A stretch of 64,000 bases of DNA, taken from an uncultured Burkholderiales bacterium. Its GTDB lineage: Bacteria; Pseudomonadota; Gammaproteobacteria; Burkholderiales; Burkholderiaceae_C. Positions 31,933 to 62,908 of this stretch are shown here, piece by piece. The stretch lies in NCBI GenBank assembly GCA_903832625.1, contig CAILCI010000088.1:1-64000 (forward strand), given 5' to 3'. A program made the position numbers and the translations under genes. The notes under the pieces were generated by a model that had not been told where the DNA came from, did not search any database, and saw nothing but the letters and a program-made list of their open reading frames with translations. How positions within the stretch are numbered: the first letter of the stretch is position 1; every line of letters begins with the position of its first letter.

Positions 31933-32008
31933 GCGGCTGTAGCTCAGTGGATAGAGTATTGGCCTCCGAAGCCAAGGGTCGTGGGTTCGATCCCCGCCAG
32001 CCGCACCA
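31933..32008 (+). tRNA. tRNA-Arg (anticodon CCG)
   Basis: 76 bases including an encoded 3' CCA. The acceptor stem GCGGCTG pairs with CAGCCGC. The D-arm contains AGCTCAGTGGATAGAGT. The anticodon stem TTGGC/GCCAA encloses CTCCGAA, giving anticodon CCG, which reads CGG arginine codons. The T-arm is CGTGGGTTCGATCCCCGCC. TACAAT at 31912-31917 is a possible -10 element. It stands alone, with no second tRNA nearby. Confidence 0.97.
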
Positions 32009-32100: not shown

Positions 32101-32676
32101 GTGAAACAAAATATAAAGCAATTATTGATAACGGGGTTGATGCTGGCGAGTCAACTCAGCATGGCGCAAACATCGGCTCCCAGCACAGCTGAAATGATTG
32201 AGCAACTCAAAGCGCCAGCCCCTGCAGTTCAATTCAAAACACGGGGTTTGCGAAATTTAAGTGTAGAAGCGGCACCTGATAACGCCTCAGAAACAGCCAA
32301 CGGTTCTAATGCCACGGCGGCCCAAACGCCCGCCCTCCGCCCGTCTTTGTCATTGCTGATTCAGTTTGATTTCAATTCAGCGCAAATCAGGCCTGAGAGT
32401 CAGCAGTCGTTGATGAATTTGGCGCAAGCGCTCAAAGCCCCTGAATTGCTCAATTCCAATTTTGCGGTGGAAGGCCACACCGACGCCAAAGGCGGCAGCG
32501 ACTACAACCTCAAACTCAGCCAACAACGCGCCGATGCCGTGCAGAAATTCTTAGCCCAGCGCGGCGTGGCATCAGGCCGCTTGATGGCAGTTGGCAAAGG
32601 CTCAACCCAATTGGCCAATTCCAGCGATCCATTGGCTGCCGAAAACCGCCGAGTTCGCATTGTCAATCTCGACTGA
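32101..32676 (+). CDS. OmpA-family peptidoglycan-binding protein
   Basis: 191 residues from a GTG at 32101 with AAAGGGG upstream. Residues 1-22 form a signal peptide ending SMAQ. A Ser/Ala/Asn-rich linker leads to a C-terminal OmpA domain: LLIQFDFNSAQIRPES, VEGHTDAKGGSDYNLKLSQQRADAV and NRRVRI, which carry the Asp and Arg that bind diaminopimelate. There is no beta barrel, so it is probably a soluble periplasmic cell-wall-bound protein. It overlaps or abuts the CHASE2 gene and looks like the first gene of the CHASE2-caspase unit. Confidence 0.88.
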   Translation: MKQNIKQLLITGLMLASQLSMAQTSAPSTAEMIEQLKAPAPAVQFKTRGLRNLSVEAAPDNASETANGSNATAAQTPALRPSLSLLIQFDFNSAQIRPESQQSLMNLAQALKAPELLNSNFAVEGHTDAKGGSDYNLKLSQQRADAVQKFLAQRGVASGRLMAVGKGSTQLANSSDPLAAENRRVRIVNLD

Positions 32677-34372
32677 TACGCGCCAAAAATTTTGGCATCG
32701 ACTGGAGCGCCAGCTGCTGGCCAAGGTCGCTGCTTGGCCTGAGCGTGCCGTTCATGTGTGTCTGGTCAGCGTGTTTTCCTTGTGGGTGGTGATCGATGTT
32801 TTGTTTTTAGGCGTGACGGGTGGTCTGGCTCAAACCACCTATGACGCTATGGTGAGAGCGCGTTTGTTTGCGCCAGCGCTGGACGATCGTTTGCTGATTG
32901 TGGACATTGATGAGGCCGCCTTGGCGCGAATGTCTAAAGAGTTTGGACGCTGGCCGTGGCCGCGCGACACCTTGGCCAGCGTGCTGGATTTTGTCGAAAG
33001 CCAACAACCCGCTGCCGTGGTGTGGGACATTGTGTTTTCTGACCTAGATCGTCTCAATCCAGGCGGAGACGCGGCCTTTGACGCTGCCGTCAACCGCAGC
33101 CAGCACAGCCACTTTGGCGTGGTGCGCTTGCCCATTGACAACGATGACAAAAGCCAAATCACTCAGAAGAATTTGAAGAATTTATGGGTTGTGCCCGCGA
33201 AAAGCGAGGACTTGAGCACCTTGGCGCTGATCCCACCTGCCTTGCCGGCCATCGTGCACAAACCGCTGGGCTTTAACAACGGTTATGTGGACAAAGATGG
33301 CGTGCTCAGGCGTTACCGCAATTTTGAGCAACTCAAGGACGGCGGAGTGATTCAAAGCCTAGCAATGGGCGTGAGCCAGTCCTTAGATCCCGCCACCCAT
33401 GCCTACTGGCTGGAACATTTCGAGCAAGAAAAAGGCAAGGTAGACACTGAAAACGCAAGCTCAGCCGATGTGCTCATCAATTGGCGAAAAAAACCCAATC
33501 TGTATCCGCGGGTGAATTTTGCCGATGTTTTTGCCAAGGCCGAAGGCGAGCCAACAACTGCGCAACTGCCCTCCATGGCAGGAAAGATCGTCATCATTGG
33601 CGCAACCGCACCCAGCCTTCACGATGTGCATCCAACACCTTTGTCGAGCGCGCAAAACGGCGTCGATGCTTTGGCGACCAGCATAGACAATGCCTTGCAC
33701 CGACGAGTGATGTACGAGCTGCCCAAATGGTTGGCGGCGACAGTGGCTGTGCTTTTATGTGCTGTCATCTCGCTGTGGAGCTATCACACCAGTGTGTCGC
33801 GTCTCTCGCAGGCTATGGTGGCGCTGCCGGGTGTGCTGTTGGGTGTGAGTTTTGTAAGTCTGCACAGCAGCCAATTTTTCATCGATCTTCATTTGTCAGC
33901 AGCCTTGGCAATTTTGTATTTGGCATTGCTCAAAGCTTGGTTTGCTGCGCGCAAACGCTATTGGTGCGGCGAAGTGATTCAGCCCTTGGACAATTCATTG
34001 GCCATTTGGGCCTGCGAATTGCCCGAGGCATGGACTGACGATGCGCTCAACGCCCTGATGGGCTGCTTACAAAGCCATGCGCCAACGGCACGCATTATGT
34101 TGTTAGATATTAGTCCAGCAGACAGCAACTTGCTGGTCTGGAAGCCCTTTGCAAGTTCATTGGCGATTGTGGGGGACAACGCTGAGTTGACATTTGCCAA
34201 ACCTGCCATTGAGCGCTGCTTGCAGGGACTAGATGCCAAGTCAATAGCGCTTTATCCCGTTGCTCGGGCAAGCGACGCAACACAGCTGCGCCAAGTTCTT
34301 TCGCAAACCGCGCTGCAGGCTTGGGCTGAGCTGCGCCAAGCACCCACACACATCAAAATGGAATCGACATGA
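32660..34372 (+). CDS. CHASE2-domain membrane protein lacking a known output domain
   Basis: About 570 residues if translation begins at the TTG at 32660, inside the OmpA stop region. A TTG at 32591 is the alternative, and no strong Shine-Dalgarno is visible for either. Layout: cytoplasmic tail, membrane helix about 31-51, a large periplasmic CHASE2 domain (DDRLLIVDIDEAALARMSKEFGRWPWPRDTLA is typical), three membrane helices (about 356-374, 385-405, 412-435) and a ~130-residue cytoplasmic end. That end shows no histidine-kinase, cyclase or Ser/Thr-kinase motifs. The stop overlaps the caspase start (ATGA). Presumed role: periplasmic sensing. Confidence 0.85.
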   Translation: MSISTDTRQKFWHRLERQLLAKVAAWPERAVHVCLVSVFSLWVVIDVLFLGVTGGLAQTTYDAMVRARLFAPALDDRLLIVDIDEAALARMSKEFGRWPWPRDTLASVLDFVESQQPAAVVWDIVFSDLDRLNPGGDAAFDAAVNRSQHSHFGVVRLPIDNDDKSQITQKNLKNLWVVPAKSEDLSTLALIPPALPAIVHKPLGFNNGYVDKDGVLRRYRNFEQLKDGGVIQSLAMGVSQSLDPATHAYWLEHFEQEKGKVDTENASSADVLINWRKKPNLYPRVNFADVFAKAEGEPTTAQLPSMAGKIVIIGATAPSLHDVHPTPLSSAQNGVDALATSIDNALHRRVMYELPKWLAATVAVLLCAVISLWSYHTSVSRLSQAMVALPGVLLGVSFVSLHSSQFFIDLHLSAALAILYLALLKAWFAARKRYWCGEVIQPLDNSLAIWACELPEAWTDDALNALMGCLQSHAPTARIMLLDISPADSNLLVWKPFASSLAIVGDNAELTFAKPAIERCLQGLDAKSIALYPVARASDATQLRQVLSQTALQAWAELRQAPTHIKMEST

Positions 34373-36429
34373 AAAAATTCGTTCAGGCAGTAGCTTTGAG
34401 TTTTTTATCTTTTGCGGCATCAGCGCAAAGCTCAGCCGTGCTCACCCGCGCCGCTGAAATTCGTGCGGACAAGTTGGCATCTTCTGCGGTGTTGTTGTCG
34501 CTCGATCAAGGCGCCAATGTTCGCGTGCAAAGCTTGGAGGGCGGCTGGGCATTGGTGGAGGTCACCACCCCAAAAGCTCGGGTTTCGGGCTGGATTCGCG
34601 CCAGCGCACTCAATCTGCAGGCCGCCACATCGCAGCTCACTGCGCTCTCGAGTGGGCGCGAAGCGAGCGGAAACACCGCTCTGACCTTGGGTGTGCGTAG
34701 CATTCCGCAGCTCGCTCCGCGCATCAATCGCCATGCGCTCATCATCGATGTGGGGCGTTATGCAGATCCCAGCGTTCCGTCCTTGCCAGGCACCAAGTTA
34801 GACAAAAACTCGGCCACGCAAATGGCGCAAGCCATGCAAGTACCAGGCAGCAATATTCAATATCTGCAAGACGACCAAGCAACAGGAGAAAACATCCGAC
34901 AAGCCTTACGCGATTTGTCTGAGCGCGTGCAAGACGGCGACCGTGTGTTCATCCATTACTCAGGCCACGGCACACGTTACAAAGACCCCGAGGTTGGCGG
35001 CTGCGTTGAGGCTTTGTTGCCCTTTGACGGCATGAGTAAAGGCATGTTGACGAACCGCGAAATGGCGGGCTTGCTCAGCCCCATCTCGCGCAAAACTGAC
35101 AAATTGTTTGTCATGTACGACGCCTGCCATTCGGGTGGCATGTTGCCCCCGCCCGTAGAGGCCAGAACGCGCGGTCTGACCAACCGAAATGACGATGGCG
35201 CCTTGCGACCCAAATTTGCAGGTGTCTCCGAGGAATGCAGCATTCCTGCCAACGTCAAAACACGTGGCTTGGTCAGTGAGCAAACAAAGAACGGAGACAT
35301 GCCACAAGACATCATTCATTTGTCTGCGGCCAGAGACAACGAAATCAGCTTTGATGACGAACAAAAAGGCGGCTTGGCCACCCAGTACATGCGCGATTGC
35401 ATGTTGCGCGATGCCAAAGATTTGGATGGCTCAGGCGCCATCTCGATTGATGAAATGCGTCAATGTGCACAAGAAAAAATCAACAATCGCATGAAAAACG
35501 ACAGCGATTTCAAGCCGCACAACTTGGTGCTCTCAGGCAATGCCAATTTTGTGCCAGCGTGGTTCAGCCAAGGCCTGCCCGCTAGCGCGCCCGTCTTCGT
35601 TGCGCCCGTCAACGCCCAACCGGCGGTGCAAGCCATAACGCCAGCAACATCGCCGGTAGCTGTCACGCAAGCACCAGCACCAGCACCAGCACCAGCACCA
35701 GCACCCGCTGCGACTCAGGTGACACAAGTCGCCACTATGCCTGCAACGCCAACGCCAACGCCAACGCCAACGCCAACGCCAACGCCAACGGTCACAGCGC
35801 CTGCACCAACACCCGCACCATCAGCGCAAGTAGCTGCAGCACCCGTGGCCGTGGTGCAGGAAGAAAAACAAGCTGTTGCGCCACAACCTGTGTCTGGCGA
35901 ACAGGCCTTGCGACAAATGTTTGACCAGCGCAATGCCAAGCGCAAAGTGGTGGTGACTTTGAGCAAATCGAGTCTGGTCATTGGCAAGGATGCGCTGGCG
36001 TTCTCTGTCAAGTCTGAGCGCGCAGGCTATGTCTATGTCGCGCTGGCGGGGTCTGACGGCAAAGCGCTCTACATGTTGTTTCCCAATGATTTGGATCAAA
36101 ACAACAAAATCGAAGCTGGTCAAACCTTGGACTTGCCCAAAGCCAATTGGCGCATCAAGGCCTCGGGGCCAGTGGGCGTGGATCAACTGTTGGTGATCGT
36201 CAGCGATGCGCCGCGCGATTTGAGCAGCTTGGCGGGGCGCAAAACCGGTCCGTTTTTGACCTCACTCAACGATGCCAATGGCCGAGCTCAGCTGGGCGCA
36301 CTCATGAGTGCTTCAAAATGGGTAAGCACACAAACCTGCGTCAATGCAGCACAGATCAAAAACAATCCGCTGTGCTCAGACGCCTACGGTGCAGAAATGG
36401 TGCAGATGAATGAGGTAGCTGCACCATGA
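34369..36429 (+). CDS. Exported caspase-family protease with EF-hand loop and DUF4384 domain
   Basis: 686 residues. Signal peptide 1-19 (ends SAQ), SH3b-like region about 30-85, and a caspase/metacaspase domain about 120-395. The catalytic dyad is intact: His200 in HYSGHGTRY and Cys253 in YDACHSGG. Residues 351-362 (DLDGSGAISIDE) form a canonical 12-residue EF-hand calcium loop inside the domain. A disordered linker of AP and PT repeats (about 435-485) leads to a DUF4384-like domain (about 525-620). Export places the protease in the periplasm. It is translationally coupled to the CHASE2 gene. The substrate is unknown. Confidence 0.88.
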   Translation: MKKFVQAVALSFLSFAASAQSSAVLTRAAEIRADKLASSAVLLSLDQGANVRVQSLEGGWALVEVTTPKARVSGWIRASALNLQAATSQLTALSSGREASGNTALTLGVRSIPQLAPRINRHALIIDVGRYADPSVPSLPGTKLDKNSATQMAQAMQVPGSNIQYLQDDQATGENIRQALRDLSERVQDGDRVFIHYSGHGTRYKDPEVGGCVEALLPFDGMSKGMLTNREMAGLLSPISRKTDKLFVMYDACHSGGMLPPPVEARTRGLTNRNDDGALRPKFAGVSEECSIPANVKTRGLVSEQTKNGDMPQDIIHLSAARDNEISFDDEQKGGLATQYMRDCMLRDAKDLDGSGAISIDEMRQCAQEKINNRMKNDSDFKPHNLVLSGNANFVPAWFSQGLPASAPVFVAPVNAQPAVQAITPATSPVAVTQAPAPAPAPAPAPAATQVTQVATMPATPTPTPTPTPTPTPTVTAPAPTPAPSAQVAAAPVAVVQEEKQAVAPQPVSGEQALRQMFDQRNAKRKVVVTLSKSSLVIGKDALAFSVKSERAGYVYVALAGSDGKALYMLFPNDLDQNNKIEAGQTLDLPKANWRIKASGPVGVDQLLVIVSDAPRDLSSLAGRKTGPFLTSLNDANGRAQLGALMSASKWVSTQTCVNAAQIKNNPLCSDAYGAEMVQMNEVAAP
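35671..35706 (+). repeat. GCACCA hexanucleotide microsatellite
   Basis: Five perfect GCACCA units (35671-35700) plus GCACCC, encoding an Ala-Pro run in the caspase linker. Unit loss or gain would change length by two residues without a frameshift. Confidence 0.95.
35745..35790 (+). repeat. CCAACG hexanucleotide microsatellite
   Basis: Seven perfect CCAACG units (35749-35790) preceded by a partial AACG, encoding a Pro-Thr run in the same linker. It lies 38 bases after the GCACCA array. The two arrays are different hexamers that both yield Pro-rich dipeptides. Confidence 0.95.
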
Positions 36430-36452
36430 GAAAGATGTAGTTCTGTGACGCT

Positions 36453-36959
36453 TTAAGAAGCAGATTTCACGAAAATTATCTTCTCCACCACGCTTTCGTT
36501 TTCACTGTTTTTCTTGAGCACAACTTTGACATCGTGACCTTTGGTGGCGGAGAAATAGTTTTTCTCCTGAGAGGCTTTCTTTGAAGCATCGCTCATGGTT
36601 TTGATTGCATTGATGATGCTAAAAATCAAGAACGGGTTTTTAGCCGTCACGCCCGATGAGCTGGGTGGCTCTTCCACGATGATGTGACCCCCAGTCAACT
36701 CGACATGGTTGAGCCAAGTTTTCATGCGATCAGGCATTTTGTTGGGCGATGTGTGGTCGTAAAAAGGCACCTCAACCTGCGCCAGTTGACCGTTCAAAGA
36801 CTGCGACAAGTCTTTGTCAAACTGGTCAATATCCACAAAGGCCACCACGGGTTTGAGATCCCCAGTGCTCACGACAGGACCGGTTGTTTCACATGCACAG
36901 AGCAAAAGCACGCTGCTAAGCGTCAACAAGCCGAGAATACGAAGGTTGATTTTTTCCAT
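36453..36959 (-). CDS. Predicted lipoprotein of unknown function
   Basis: 168 residues from the ATG at 36959. The signal peptide ends in lipobox LLCAC, so the protein is probably lipid-anchored in the periplasm. The mature part contains VVAFVDIDQFDKDLSQSLNGQLAQVEVPFYD and a Lys/Ser/Asn-rich end. I do not recognise the family. It is convergent with the caspase gene, 23 bases apart, and lower in GC than the following rsmI, so it may belong to the same accessory block. Confidence 0.7.
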   Translation of the reverse strand: MEKINLRILGLLTLSSVLLLCACETTGPVVSTGDLKPVVAFVDIDQFDKDLSQSLNGQLAQVEVPFYDHTSPNKMPDRMKTWLNHVELTGGHIIVEEPPSSSGVTAKNPFLIFSIINAIKTMSDASKKASQEKNYFSATKGHDVKVVLKKNSENESVVEKIIFVKSAS

Positions 36960-37023: not shown

Positions 37024-37935
37024 TCAAGATTGATTTTTGATTTCCAAAGCCAAGTCATACAAAGTGTTGCGTGGCGCACCTGAAATCTCAGCCGCGAGCT
37101 TGACGGCGGACTTCAATGGCAGCTCCGTCAGCAACAGTCGCAATACCCGTTCGCCCTCAGCAGCAGGTGTTGCGGGTTGTTGTGAGGCATGAATCACCAG
37201 CGCAAATTCGCCTTTAAGGCGCTGTGCATTGACGCTTAACCAAGCAGGAAAAGCTTGCGCGGTGAAAGTGGCGATTTCTTCAAATTGCTTGGTCAACTCG
37301 CGCCCCACCGTGATTTGGCGTTCCCCCAACACAGTCAGTGCCGTGGCCAGCGCTTCAATGCGGTGCGGTGCTTCCAACACAATTTGCGTACGGGTTTCTA
37401 GCTTGAGTAATTCAACCGCCACAGCACGCTCTTGCGCCTTGCTGGGCAAAAAGCCGACAAACACAAAACCAGAAATATCGGCGCTGGGTGAGCCGCACGC
37501 GCTCAAAAGCGTCGTCACGCTGCTCGCCCCGGGCAAAGGAATCACGCGCAGCCCAGCCTGAGCCACCTGCCAAGCCAAACGGGCGCCAGGGTCGCTCACA
37601 GCGGGCGTTCCGGCGTCGCTCAGGTAAGCCACGCGTTCGCCCGCTTGCAAGCGGGCAATGATGTCTTGCGCTGCCTCAGCTTCGTTGTGCTGGTGCGCGG
37701 CGAGCCAGTGTTTTTGCGCAGGATCAATGCCGTACAGACGCACCATGCCTTGCGTGTGCCGCGTGTCTTCGCACGCCAACACATTGCATAGCTGCATCAC
37801 ATGCAATGCGCGTAAGCTGATGTCCGCTAAATTTCCGATGGGCGATGCCACCATGTACAAAGCTCCGCTCGGATAATTTTGCGATGCGGCTGCGGCGTGT
37901 GCGGCTGAGAGAGCGGGTTCAAAATTGGCGTTCAT
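37024..37935 (-). CDS. rsmI: 16S rRNA (cytidine-1402-2'-O)-methyltransferase
   Basis: 303 residues from the ATG at 37935. An in-frame extension past this point overlaps yraN and is dismissed. SAM-dependent tetrapyrrole-methylase-fold enzyme that methylates C1402 at the decoding centre. YMVASPIGNLADISLRA, EDTRHT, LSDAGTPAVSDPG and PLPGASSVTTLLSACG are diagnostic. It diverges from yraN, with 37 bases between starts, as in E. coli. Confidence 0.96.
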   Translation of the reverse strand: MNANFEPALSAAHAAAASQNYPSGALYMVASPIGNLADISLRALHVMQLCNVLACEDTRHTQGMVRLYGIDPAQKHWLAAHQHNEAEAAQDIIARLQAGERVAYLSDAGTPAVSDPGARLAWQVAQAGLRVIPLPGASSVTTLLSACGSPSADISGFVFVGFLPSKAQERAVAVELLKLETRTQIVLEAPHRIEALATALTVLGERQITVGRELTKQFEEIATFTAQAFPAWLSVNAQRLKGEFALVIHASQQPATPAAEGERVLRLLLTELPLKSAVKLAAEISGAPRNTLYDLALEIKNQS

Positions 37936-59929: not shown

Positions 59930-62908
59930 TCAGCGCTGCGAGTCGCCCACCAGCACATAGGGTGCCCAAAACGCCGGATGGCCGTAACGCGGATCAGCCA
60001 TGACTTGCAAAATGGCTTGGCGCAGGCTTTCGGCCTTGGGGGCTTGCGGGTTGTGGGTGAAGTGGCCAAAGGTGCGGGTGGTGAGTTCTTTGGCGCTTTC
60101 AGACTCGACCGCCCAGTGCGTCACCAACATGCTGCGGCTGCCGGCATAAAAGAAGCCCCGCGCCAAGCCACTCAGCGCTTCTTCGGCGCGACCATCGGCG
60201 GCGGCAGTGTTGCAAGCGCTCAGCACCACCCAATCGGCGTTGAGTTTTAAGCCCAACACGTCCTCCAAGGTGAGCAAAGGCGCGAGCGCATTTTTCGATT
60301 CGGAGCCATCCGCCGCCAGCGCCAGCGCGGGTTGAGTGAGGTGAGGCAAGTCGCCCGCCATCAGCCCGTGGGTGGCAAAGACGATGACTTTCTTTTGCGC
60401 CAACAAGCCGCTTTTGCTCACACTGAGCACGCTGGCGCGGGTGGCATTGCTGCCCAGCAACAAGTCTTGCGACAGGTTTGCGTTGAGCGCTGTGGCCAAT
60501 GCGTTCAACTCGTCGCGCGTGTCGGGCAGGGTGGGAATGCTGTGATAAATCTTGTCGCCGGGCTCGGCTTCCAACTCTATGTCTTGACTCAGCGAGCGTG
60601 TGAAGTTGACGTTGCGCACGCCCGCTGGCGCGACAGAGGCGACGGCGGCAGAAGGGTCAAACACCGGATCGCCCCAAGCCAACAAGGCTTGTTGAGGCAA
60701 TTGTTGTCGCTTCAAAGAGCGCAGGCTCAGCCAAGAGCTGACGCTGGGCACTTGGCTCAGACTCACTTGTTGGATCAGCCACGAAGGGGCTTGTTTGCCT
60801 TGTCGCGCTTGGGTTTGCAGCACAGCGAAGGGCAGGCGTGCCAATGCGCCGGAAGTGGCCAAAATCCATTGTTTGCGGTCAGCCAGTTCTGCGGATAACG
60901 GGGCAATCAGGGCTTGGTAGGTTTGAAAAGCGAGCGCATCGTCAAAAGGCTTTAAGCGTCCCGTGGTGCCCAAACTCTCCAGCGACACACGCAGCGTGGC
61001 CACAGATTTTTCAAGCTGCGCTTGCGTCATGCTGGCGCGGTGGAATTTGGCGATGACTTTGCCTGCGTCTTGCTTGACCGCCCAGACGTTGACGCCTGTT
61101 GCGTCAGGCATCAAGACCAGCAAGGCTTCGTCCGAGGTGAGTTTGGCACCAATGTCGTCCAAGGTGGGCGGCAGGGGATGAACCAAGCGCTCATAGTCGG
61201 GAAAACCTTGTTTGATTTTGGCCTGCAAACCTGTGCGCTGTTTTTCGAGGAGCGCAATGCGTTCGCGCATTTGGGTGGCCACTTCGGGCAGGGGAGATTG
61301 GGCGCTGCCCGCCTCGCCTGCCAAATAGGCGCGCAGGCCTTGCACCTCGTTTTTGGCATCTTGTTCTTGGCGAACCAATTCGGACAGCCCTTGCGTGTTG
61401 GCTGCGGAGCGCACCGCTGCGTCAGACAAAGCCTCTTGCACAGCACCTGCGTGAAGCCAGTCGGCCAACCCCAGGGTTTGGGTGACGCGCTCAGGGTTGG
61501 TTTGCGCCAAGGCTTCGATGTAAGTGCCAATGATGAGCTTGCGAGTTTCGGGACGAATGCCAAATTGGTTCAGGTAGTCGGCGTTGCGCGGGCTGATCAA
61601 GTTGAGCGAGGCTTGCTCCAGCAAAGGCAGCGCGGCTTGCTTCTTGGCTGCATCTGCGCTGCGCCACAAGGCCACGCCTTGCAGACCTTTGGATTGGGCG
61701 ACGTAGAAATGGTCTTCGTCATAAATTTTGGCGTTGCCTGCGGCTGCGCGTTCAAACAACTCAGCGGCTGGCTCGTTCATTTGGTTGCCAAGGTAAACGT
61801 AGCCTCGGTCAAAGTTGAATTGAACCCGTCTTTTGAGCGCGGGATCATCGCCTGCGATGGCGTCAAGACGTTGAACTTCAGCCAAAGCCTCAGGCCATTT
61901 TTTTTCGCCCATCATGGCGACGAATATGTCGCGACGGCGTTTGATTCGTTCTAAGTTGCTGCTGGGCTGTCCGAGTTCTTCCAATATTTGATCTGACTTC
62001 AGCGCGAGTTTTTCGGATTGCGCAAATTCGCGTTGGGCAAAGCGTAGGTTAGTAGCGACGGAATAAATTCCCGATTTGAATGCGATGGGTAATTCTGCTT
62101 CAGAAGAAAACCGCACATAACTTCTCAAGGCATCTTCAGCATCGGCGAAGCGCCCTGCTGCAAGCAAAGCTTGGGTCTTACGAGCCAAGGTATTGGCTAA
62201 GTCTTGAGATAAATTGAGTCGAGCATTGGAAGCGTCGCCTGGCAAGCTGATGGGATAAGCTTTTCGAGCCGCTATTTCCGCAAAATTGGCCGCTTCAATG
62301 GCTTTTTCAATGTGTCCTGTGGCTTGCTCAAGTCTGGAAAGATGAAAACCGTAGTAAAGCGAGGCCCGTAAAAGATTGCGTTCAGCGCCTCGCGATTTTT
62401 GCGAAGGGGTTAAGGTGTCGATCTGAACTTTTATGTTTTCTAGCGTTGTTCGCGCTTCAGCGTACTTACCCCAGGTTAAATAATCATTTGCAATTTGACA
62501 CATTTGAAAGGGCTTGGCAAACCCTTTATCGTTATCCGCCAACTCTTTGTGCAGCGCAAGTGCTTTGGCGTATTGGCCTTTGTTGCGGTAAATATTGGCT
62601 AGATTATTTTTAAAATTCGGAAGGTCTAAAACAGTCAAAGCTTCAGTCAATATTTGTTCTTCTGCATCAGGAACGCCAAGTCGTCTCGCAGCAACGGTCT
62701 TTGCATAAACCTGCTGCTCCAATTTAATCTTGAGCGCAGTTTTATCGAGCGGCTCATCTAAGATGGCCTGCAGCTGCACCCGTTCTTGCGGTGTTACGGT
62801 TTTGAAGCTGGCGTCAATGTCCTCGCTTTGCGCCCAAACGGATGAAGCGCTAAAACACACAAGGCTAACCCCAATCAAAAATTTTATAAACACAAAACTT
62901 CTGTGCAT
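59930..62908 (-). CDS. Exported TPR-CHAT protein (caspase-like fold)
   Basis: 992 residues from the ATG at 62908 with AAAGGACTTCACC upstream. Signal peptide 1-26 (ends VWAQ). A helical, TPR-like region about 85-480 (NNLANIYRNKGQYAKALALHKELA is one repeat), a linker region about 500-640, and a C-terminal CHAT domain. The catalytic pair is intact: His at about 847 (VFATHGLM) and Cys at about 899 (VLSACNTA). CHAT is a caspase-like protease fold. Export is inferred from the signal. The N-terminal half is clearly AT-richer than the C-terminal half. It lies where queA and recG would normally be close. Confidence 0.88.
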   Translation of the reverse strand: MHRSFVFIKFLIGVSLVCFSASSVWAQSEDIDASFKTVTPQERVQLQAILDEPLDKTALKIKLEQQVYAKTVAARRLGVPDAEEQILTEALTVLDLPNFKNNLANIYRNKGQYAKALALHKELADNDKGFAKPFQMCQIANDYLTWGKYAEARTTLENIKVQIDTLTPSQKSRGAERNLLRASLYYGFHLSRLEQATGHIEKAIEAANFAEIAARKAYPISLPGDASNARLNLSQDLANTLARKTQALLAAGRFADAEDALRSYVRFSSEAELPIAFKSGIYSVATNLRFAQREFAQSEKLALKSDQILEELGQPSSNLERIKRRRDIFVAMMGEKKWPEALAEVQRLDAIAGDDPALKRRVQFNFDRGYVYLGNQMNEPAAELFERAAAGNAKIYDEDHFYVAQSKGLQGVALWRSADAAKKQAALPLLEQASLNLISPRNADYLNQFGIRPETRKLIIGTYIEALAQTNPERVTQTLGLADWLHAGAVQEALSDAAVRSAANTQGLSELVRQEQDAKNEVQGLRAYLAGEAGSAQSPLPEVATQMRERIALLEKQRTGLQAKIKQGFPDYERLVHPLPPTLDDIGAKLTSDEALLVLMPDATGVNVWAVKQDAGKVIAKFHRASMTQAQLEKSVATLRVSLESLGTTGRLKPFDDALAFQTYQALIAPLSAELADRKQWILATSGALARLPFAVLQTQARQGKQAPSWLIQQVSLSQVPSVSSWLSLRSLKRQQLPQQALLAWGDPVFDPSAAVASVAPAGVRNVNFTRSLSQDIELEAEPGDKIYHSIPTLPDTRDELNALATALNANLSQDLLLGSNATRASVLSVSKSGLLAQKKVIVFATHGLMAGDLPHLTQPALALAADGSESKNALAPLLTLEDVLGLKLNADWVVLSACNTAAADGRAEEALSGLARGFFYAGSRSMLVTHWAVESESAKELTTRTFGHFTHNPQAPKAESLRQAILQVMADPRYGHPAFWAPYVLVGDSQR

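Follow-up and report, generated by a model that had tools for sequence, protein, structure and literature searches.

What would a CHASE2 membrane sensor do when it ends without a recognised output domain and is followed by a caspase-type enzyme that appears to be exported? The question is raised by contig CAILCI010000088.1 of an uncultured Burkholderiales bacterium (assembly GCA_903832625.1), of which positions 1 to 64,000, hereafter the window, were analysed; in this freshwater bacterium, a conserved gene set joins a membrane sensor and an exported caspase-type enzyme to partners anchored in the wall or membrane. An original prediction, made from the letters alone, had placed four genes at 32101-36959, encoding an OmpA-like protein, a CHASE2 protein, a caspase with DUF4384 and a lipoprotein, and open reading frames (ORFs) together with Pfam matches confirmed that all four are present. 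Our analyses indicated that the association of CHASE2 with a predicted exported caspase is conserved as a compact cluster, from which we infer gating of the enzyme by the sensor. As to function, we give a little under even chances to a cell-envelope proteolysis module, in which CHASE2 and an SH3 element would constitute an adaptor between membrane and wall, by which an exchangeable protease of the periplasm is positioned or gated. The features of the gene set, with their coordinates in the window, are as follows.

32101..32676, + strand: OmpA-like protein, predicted to be exported and to bind peptidoglycan (PF00691, 1.1e-24; signal peptide by our rule)
32660..34372, + strand: CHASE2 membrane protein (PF05226, 4.5e-46; TTG start inferred from relatives)
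34369..36429, + strand: predicted exported caspase-family protein, with signal peptide, SH3, caspase core, EF-hand loop, low-complexity linker (Pro/Thr/Ala) and DUF4384
34438..34614, + strand: SH3 element of the caspase, residues about 24-82 (profile match to free SH3 proteins)
34966..34968, + strand: catalytic His200 codon (alignment and sequence)
35125..35127, + strand: catalytic Cys253 codon (alignment and sequence)
35419..35454, + strand: EF-hand loop, residues 351-362 (alignment)
35989..36210, + strand: DUF4384 (PF14326, 1.4e-16)
36453..36959, - strand: lipoprotein of an unnamed family, likely in the outer membrane (lipobox alignment; no Pfam or NCBIfam match)

The three forward-strand genes do overlap, as had been stated, OmpA and CHASE2 by 17 nucleotides when CHASE2 starts at TTG 32660, and CHASE2 and caspase at ATGA. 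The CHASE2 start originally listed, TTG 32591, is unlikely because four close relatives have an in-frame upstream stop and their start aligns with TTG 32660. The lipoprotein gene converges on these three genes, also as described.

The expectation that these genes would stay adjacent in other genomes held in three samples, since CHASE2 and caspase recur together in the family, in the genus and in a collection of named loci. In the family sample of 200 genomes, 11 besides that of the window carried a CHASE2 match above 200 bits, and all 11 had a caspase match no more than 2.5 kb away on that contig and strand. A caspase of at least 180 bits stood without such a CHASE2 in seven further genomes (G307, G274, G391, G285, G210, G289, and G235) and the reverse was found in none (Fisher test, 8.2e-14, with both bit lines chosen afterwards and counts that ignore relatedness); G281 has a 169-bit caspase fragment, at the start of a contig, that narrowly misses the 180-bit line. 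Within the genus (84 genomes, the window's included, relatedness again being ignored), CHASE2 and caspase shared one contig and strand in 9/9 genomes besides the window's, of which G380 belongs to both samples and G445 is represented by a contig-end fragment of 191 bits, and two genomes (G442 and G474) had caspases above 180 bits without a CHASE2 of the module kind. This genus includes Limnohabitans, as the CHASE2 gene of G380 is that of Limnohabitans sp. Jir61.

The named loci came from a scan for CHASE2 relatives, whose best 80 of 225 gave 79 loci, with partners scored by tblastn. A caspase lies downstream of CHASE2 in 52 of them, on the same strand by definition of the class and not as evidence, a free SH3 protein with an M48 peptidase is found in 19, and neither in eight, six of which (L240, L242, L252, L255, L267, and L272) end within 24 bases after CHASE2 and another (L275) 456 bases after it. 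These counts are of loci, not of independent events, because near copies exist (L204/L205, L235/L236). Records of the caspase class come from Limnohabitans, Rhodoferax, Polaromonas and Curvibacter, and the M48 counterpart from Gallionella relatives. With neighbours counted wherever they lay in flanks of up to 9 kb, the 52 caspase-class loci contained OmpA in 42, DUF4384 in 49, a lipoprotein in 23, CHAT in 17, a second caspase in 26, and CHAT or a second caspase in 38; among the 19 M48-class loci, OmpA occurred in two, and DUF4384, lipoprotein, CHAT and second caspase in none. The lipoprotein, which had been counted as part of the system, is thus a recurrent neighbour, though present in under half of the caspase-class loci. 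Of the 49 CHASE2-caspase pairs scored, 42 are separated by at most 60 nucleotides. The set stays together even though its gene order differs among loci (CHASE2-OmpA-caspase in L101 and L191-L193, inserted genes, the lipoprotein on either side).

Export was judged by a home-made signal-peptide rule with 18-26% false positives, so that its counts are read against controls. The rule was passed by 47/52 caspases, 39/41 OmpA proteins, 22/23 lipoproteins, 18/19 free SH3 proteins and 19/19 M48 peptidases, and by 5/27 RsmI, 7/29 GmhA and 27/104 background ORFs as controls; a looser test accepting any start was dropped because the controls failed it (GmhA 24/29, RsmI 13/27). Within the window, OmpA, caspase and CHAT pass and CHASE2 does not. 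The window lipoprotein fails because of a Glu at position 2; its lipobox is nonetheless clear, the lipobox Cys being kept in 21/22 aligned rows, the window row included, and the Glu at residue +2 presumably directs it to the outer membrane. The caspase had been expected outside the cytoplasm, and its signal-peptide-like start, found in the window as at the 47 loci, agrees with such a site. Support is also given by six further cysteines conserved in 26 or 27 rows of a 27-row caspase alignment (the window protein and 26 of the 52 caspase-class loci), as disulphide bonds are expected outside the cytoplasm. Our prediction is that CHASE2 sits in the inner membrane with a periplasmic sensor domain, and that the caspase protein (SH3-caspase-DUF4384) is exported, as are the OmpA-like protein and the lipoprotein.

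The caspase fold of the window protein is recognised by PF00656 (2.1e-24) and by metacaspase chains of solved structures (down to 1.3e-15); its relatives of solved structure are metacaspases and protein GSU0716. His200 and Cys253 had been numbered correctly, and both are present in the window protein. Across the 27 aligned rows they are kept in 26 and 25, respectively, and the dyad is intact in 49 of the 52 caspase-class members. In the EF-hand loop, D351, D353, S355 and G356 are invariant in 27/27 rows and E362 is kept in at least 90%; the EF pattern was matched in 47/52 members, the loop having other letters in L204, L205 and L206, being lost in L228, and lying beyond the cut-off end of L218, and it is readable in 50 of the 51 caspases whose sequence reaches it. 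An Asp precedes the catalytic Cys by two residues, a feature shared with metacaspases that presumably confers Lys/Arg specificity; control by calcium is likewise our assumption from known metacaspase relatives.

A 2012 survey of metacaspases described OmpA domains in 14 metacaspase operons and one Trichodesmium metacaspase-CHASE2 fusion (PMC3501461). Its proteins resemble the window caspase in their N-terminal signal-like helices, in OmpA as an operon member and in that link with CHASE2 (PMC3501461). The Trichodesmium fusion differs in that its metacaspase is placed in the cytoplasm, whereas the window has a separate caspase predicted to be exported; moreover, the multi-metacaspase operons given in the survey come from four groups only, Betaproteobacteria not among them, and its section 13 text names no CHASE2 operon partner (PMC3501461).

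The CHASE2 protein is predicted to consist of one N-terminal transmembrane segment, a periplasmic CHASE2 domain, three transmembrane segments and a cytoplasmic tail of about 140 residues (hydrophobic segments at 27-45, 354-372, 385-403, and 406-424). The original prediction had set it apart from the usual CHASE2 kinase or cyclase, and neither Pfam nor NCBIfam recognised a kinase, cyclase or other output domain after the last transmembrane segment. No sign of the usual output was seen, because CHASE2 is the only Pfam domain, the tail is weakly conserved (0.41 vs 0.68 for the CHASE2 domain), and a solved-structure search with the CHASE2 profile gave a sole match at E 0.48, such searches with CHASE2 and lipoprotein being uninformative.

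The flow of information might also run inward, with the exported protease cleaving CHASE2 or a wall ligand and the CHASE2 tail passing the signal to a cytoplasmic partner. This is the alternative that survives best, and we consider it unlikely, at somewhat better than one chance in five. Its appeal lies in the kinase or cyclase outputs of described CHASE2 proteins (PMC5192318; PMC13001267). The CHASE2-cyclase pathway of Sinorhizobium probably responds to a signal that is proteinaceous; it has the CHASE2 receptor in common with the window, and its output is cytoplasmic cyclic AMP (PMC13001267). In the BiofilmReg operon of Burkholderiales, which comprises a regulator, a LysM-FecR protein, a CHASE2 histidine kinase and DUF4136, a CHASE2 membrane protein likewise adjoins an exported wall-binding protein, but there the CHASE2 protein has a C-terminal kinase paired with a response regulator (PMC5192318), whereas no kinase was found at the present locus and the adjoining gene encodes a protease. 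The window locus does not belong to BiofilmReg, its neighbours being cytochrome c, OmpA, caspase, lipoprotein and rsmI. Inward flow is also favoured by one locus of another species (L107, 5989-12181), where a CHASE2-guanylate cyclase, a 222-residue exported protein (FecR-like by eye only), a caspase-DUF4384 protein and a 643-residue lipoprotein-like protein stand in a row, and by the presence of a tail of about 140 residues in the caspase class, although the poor conservation of that tail and the lack of any further Pfam match in the protein argue against it.

Returning to the proteolysis module, an SH3 element accompanies both types of protease. Pfam at its 0.001 line gave no SH3 match in the window caspase, but the caspase of L101 and the free protein of L113 did match. 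A comparison by hhalign of 15 of the 19 free SH3 proteins with the N-termini of 14 caspases gave 99.0% and E 6.4e-18 over 102 columns, which include the linker after SH3 and also part of the signal peptides; free SH3 protein and caspase N-terminus are homologous up to and including that linker. Of 78 distinct caspase cores, four without a nearby CHASE2 were set aside (less than 1800 bases of 5' sequence); in the remaining 74, SH3 on the caspase and a module-subfamily CHASE2 within 3 kb agreed in 72, with both present in 55 and neither in 17. Many of these loci were fetched via CHASE2, whose presence is not a free variable there; that of SH3 is. L107 is counted among the 17, its adjoining cyclase-type CHASE2 lying under the 60-bit subfamily line and its caspase lacking SH3. 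In a set of 22 mostly SH3-less loci, OmpA was found in 13, another caspase in 13 and a lipoprotein in four.

The HExxH motif is present in 19/19 M48-class peptidases, and the two representatives tested, L113 (6.3e-39) and L129 (9.1e-34), are BepA-like. BepA polices outer-membrane protein assembly in E. coli. The M48 partner differs from it in matching the peptidase part only (134 and 117 bits, respectively, against a full-length family cut-off of 570) and in its linkage to CHASE2 and SH3. On a quick CHASE2 tree, with long branches flagged and a root branch support of 78, the caspase class is nested among M48-class lineages, with two changes between the states, other rows being uncounted. This nesting suggests that the caspase replaced an M48 partner and was fused to the SH3 adaptor, and L256, a caspase locus on a long branch in the M48 part, may be a second replacement. 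Separately, a record titled Holophagaceae (Acidobacteriota; L249) has a CHASE2-SH3-M48 set nested among Gallionella relatives, through either transfer or a misassigned contig.

The system is accordingly broader than the four genes from which it was recognised, which stand, as SH3, the alternative M48 partner and additional genes for caspases and CHAT proteins also belong to it. Since CHASE2, SH3 and an exported peptidase are common to both main forms, the simplest account makes SH3 the adaptor, the peptidase the output and CHASE2 the sensor or anchor, and the swap of protease among relatives suggests that CHASE2 sensors control proteolysis outside the cytoplasm. The wider claim, namely that CHASE2 and the SH3 adaptor form a sensor class with interchangeable periplasmic protease output (M48 in the majority of the lineages observed; in Comamonadaceae, a caspase of calcium type followed by CHAT and second-caspase proteins), is put forward tentatively, its chances being clearly under even.

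The following course of events can be proposed. First, the SH3 element would be a periplasmic adaptor of this CHASE2 subfamily, binding CHASE2, the wall or both, and thereby placing the protease by the sensor. The form basal on the CHASE2 tree would have a free SH3 adaptor and an M48 protease (BepA-like in the two representatives), and in the lineage of the window the adaptor would have been fused to a caspase with an EF-hand loop and predicted Lys/Arg specificity. Second, a change sensed by CHASE2, or entry of calcium, would release or align the caspase, which might then cleave envelope proteins or activate the further caspase and TPR-CHAT proteins. Third, the OmpA-like protein and the lipoprotein may tether the assembly to the wall and outer membrane. 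Proteolysis would thus be signal-gated on the outer side of the inner membrane. The envelope-sensing proteolytic system of the original prediction is well supported as far as an envelope module with a protease is concerned, by adjacency, export and cysteines; sensing by CHASE2 and control of the protease are its presumptive parts.

In 2016 it was said that the signals to which CHASE2 domains respond were not known (PMC5192318); the protein-type signal now considered likely for Sinorhizobium (PMC13001267) speaks for the proteolysis module. A compact conserved cluster makes both the CHASE2 signal and the role of bacterial caspases outside the cytoplasm testable. If the proposal is true, a periplasmic output would be added to a sensor domain known for cytoplasmic ones, and bacterial caspases would be placed in envelope maintenance and not only in cell death. 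A kinase-less CHASE2 protein tied via SH3 to an exported protease was not found in our searches of open-licence literature, and in that literature, with few subscription journals, no paper was found to combine CHASE2 with OmpA in a periplasmic context, with a CHAT domain, or with M48 in an operon.

Several observations weigh against this proposal. The 200-bit CHASE2 line in the family sample was chosen after the list was seen, and one genome with a weaker CHASE2 match (G326, 133 bits) has no adjoining caspase or M48; likewise, the named locus L270 has 8.5 kb downstream of CHASE2 without either. The caspases of three of the 52 loci are dyad-dead although CHASE2 is kept, L228 and L244 lacking both residues and L262 the Cys. 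The export rule was passed by only 14/26 second caspases and 11/15 CHAT proteins, whose starts are uncertain. The link between SH3 and CHASE2 is broken by L100 (the same locus as L256, CHASE2 only) and L106 (SH3 only), and only four phylogenetically independent pairs are available, three of them in favour (sign test, p 0.25). In addition, the L107 hybrid, a CHASE2-cyclase beside an SH3-less caspase, counters a purely periplasmic circuit and indicates that CHASE2 near caspases can signal inward.

The genomic site of the cluster bears on the remaining alternatives. It is bounded by rsmI, at 37024 in the window, and on the other side by the following gene.

31933..32008, + strand: tRNA-Arg (ccg), left border of the variable site, outside the module itself

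Within the genus, the site between tRNA-Arg(ccg) and rsmI varies in content. Matches to rsmI were obtained in 83/84 genomes, and 30 rsmI loci were compared, the window's included. The site is empty in 13/30, with the tRNA at most 71 bases from rsmI; the lipoprotein adjoins rsmI in 7/30, the window among them; and the other 10 show different content, a contig end or an arrangement that was not resolved, two of them with TRAP-transporter-like genes (by eye). The tRNA-Arg flanks the module on the side opposite rsmI in the window, L187 and L190, and in L289, one of the 10, the tRNA end lies at the contig edge. Because the site is empty in some loci and module-bearing in others, the module looks like a block gained or lost as a unit. 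Integration with a duplicate of the tRNA end was ruled out, no copy of the tRNA 3' end being present near rsmI, and no integrase was seen beside the module, where no dedicated integrase search was run.

Caspase and CHAT proteases are conflict effectors elsewhere, and the cluster could be a conflict or cell-death device, a periplasmic executioner whose lethal proteases, caspase and CHAT, would be triggered by phage, by neighbours or by damage to the envelope. We regard this as improbable. The location at a variable tRNA-linked site and a match to the generic PADLOC caspase profile (5.4e-18) speak for it, as does the suggestion in the 2012 survey that metacaspases outside the cell may have a part in death or fratricide (PMC3501461). 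Against it stand the resemblance of the M48 alternative to BepA in two representatives and the plasmid records, none of 72,556 reaching 80% coverage of the CHASE2 query or of the caspase query (weaker partial matches in 25 and 23 records, respectively), by which a plasmid-borne origin was rejected as well. As for named systems, the window caspase shares the caspase fold with EACC1-type conflict systems (NF047832; PMC7159879), a relative of which has CHASE2 as a variable C-terminal domain (PMC8195603); it differs in reaching 29 bits against the NF047832 cut-off of 140, and no EACC1 or NTPase partner was found by Pfam or NCBIfam among the window proteins scanned. A PADLOC defence system was rejected, the five proteins run giving only generic caspase, OmpA/MotB and weak BovA (0.0026, CHAT) matches. 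Zorya was rejected too, as the ZorB match covers the generic OmpA part only and the neighbours are cytochrome c and CHASE2, not ZorA or a Zor effector.

A little less probable again is a complex that processes or scaffolds surface proteins or the biofilm matrix, with the caspase fold able to work as a binding domain and not as a protease. The CHASE2 kinase operon BiofilmReg does control biofilm (PMC5192318), and the three dead caspases coexist with an EF-hand loop readable in nearly every member. The dyad is, however, intact in the other 49, and the module-linked CHAT proteins of about 1000 residues keep His and Cys at the usual places in 13/13. Finally, co-inheritance without function, the block merely travelling together, is very unlikely: the patchy, site-linked distribution and the correlated divergence of CHASE2 and caspase (r 0.88, n 47, without organism-tree control) would fit it, but the cluster persists at 45-57% CHASE2 identity despite altered order, insertions and a lipoprotein on either strand, and the SH3 element accompanies CHASE2 across two protease types.

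Outside the cluster, the window holds one more protein related to the module.

59930..62908, - strand: TPR-CHAT protein, unlinked (PF12770, 3.2e-47; ORF from 63064, ATG 62908 assumed)

It passes the signal-peptide rule and adjoins queuosine genes. Its identity is 45% over 1014 residues to the CHAT protein lying between OmpA and CHASE2 in L226, and 49.5% to that of L267. A second CHAT protein, on another contig of the same genome, is 55-59% identical to the CHAT protein that follows the caspase in L198, L204, L217, L230 and L245. From these identities, the genome appears to keep two unlinked CHAT homologues of the module type, one of them in the window. The genome, of 2.6 Mb, has a single CHASE2 gene and four caspase matches; of its four CHAT matches, three are strong and the weak one lies within a caspase gene.

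Other caspase genes were also noted. Two further caspases of the window genome (L314 and L315) share a Cys-containing stretch, PDGEKGCLTDLP, directly after a signal-peptide-like start. L103, L104 and L105 are clusters of a caspase, a caspase-DUF4384 protein and OmpA without CHASE2. Very long ORFs with a weak caspase match are present in L125 (1-5271) and L126 (11647-16800), with an OmpA and a DUF4384 protein in the same loci.

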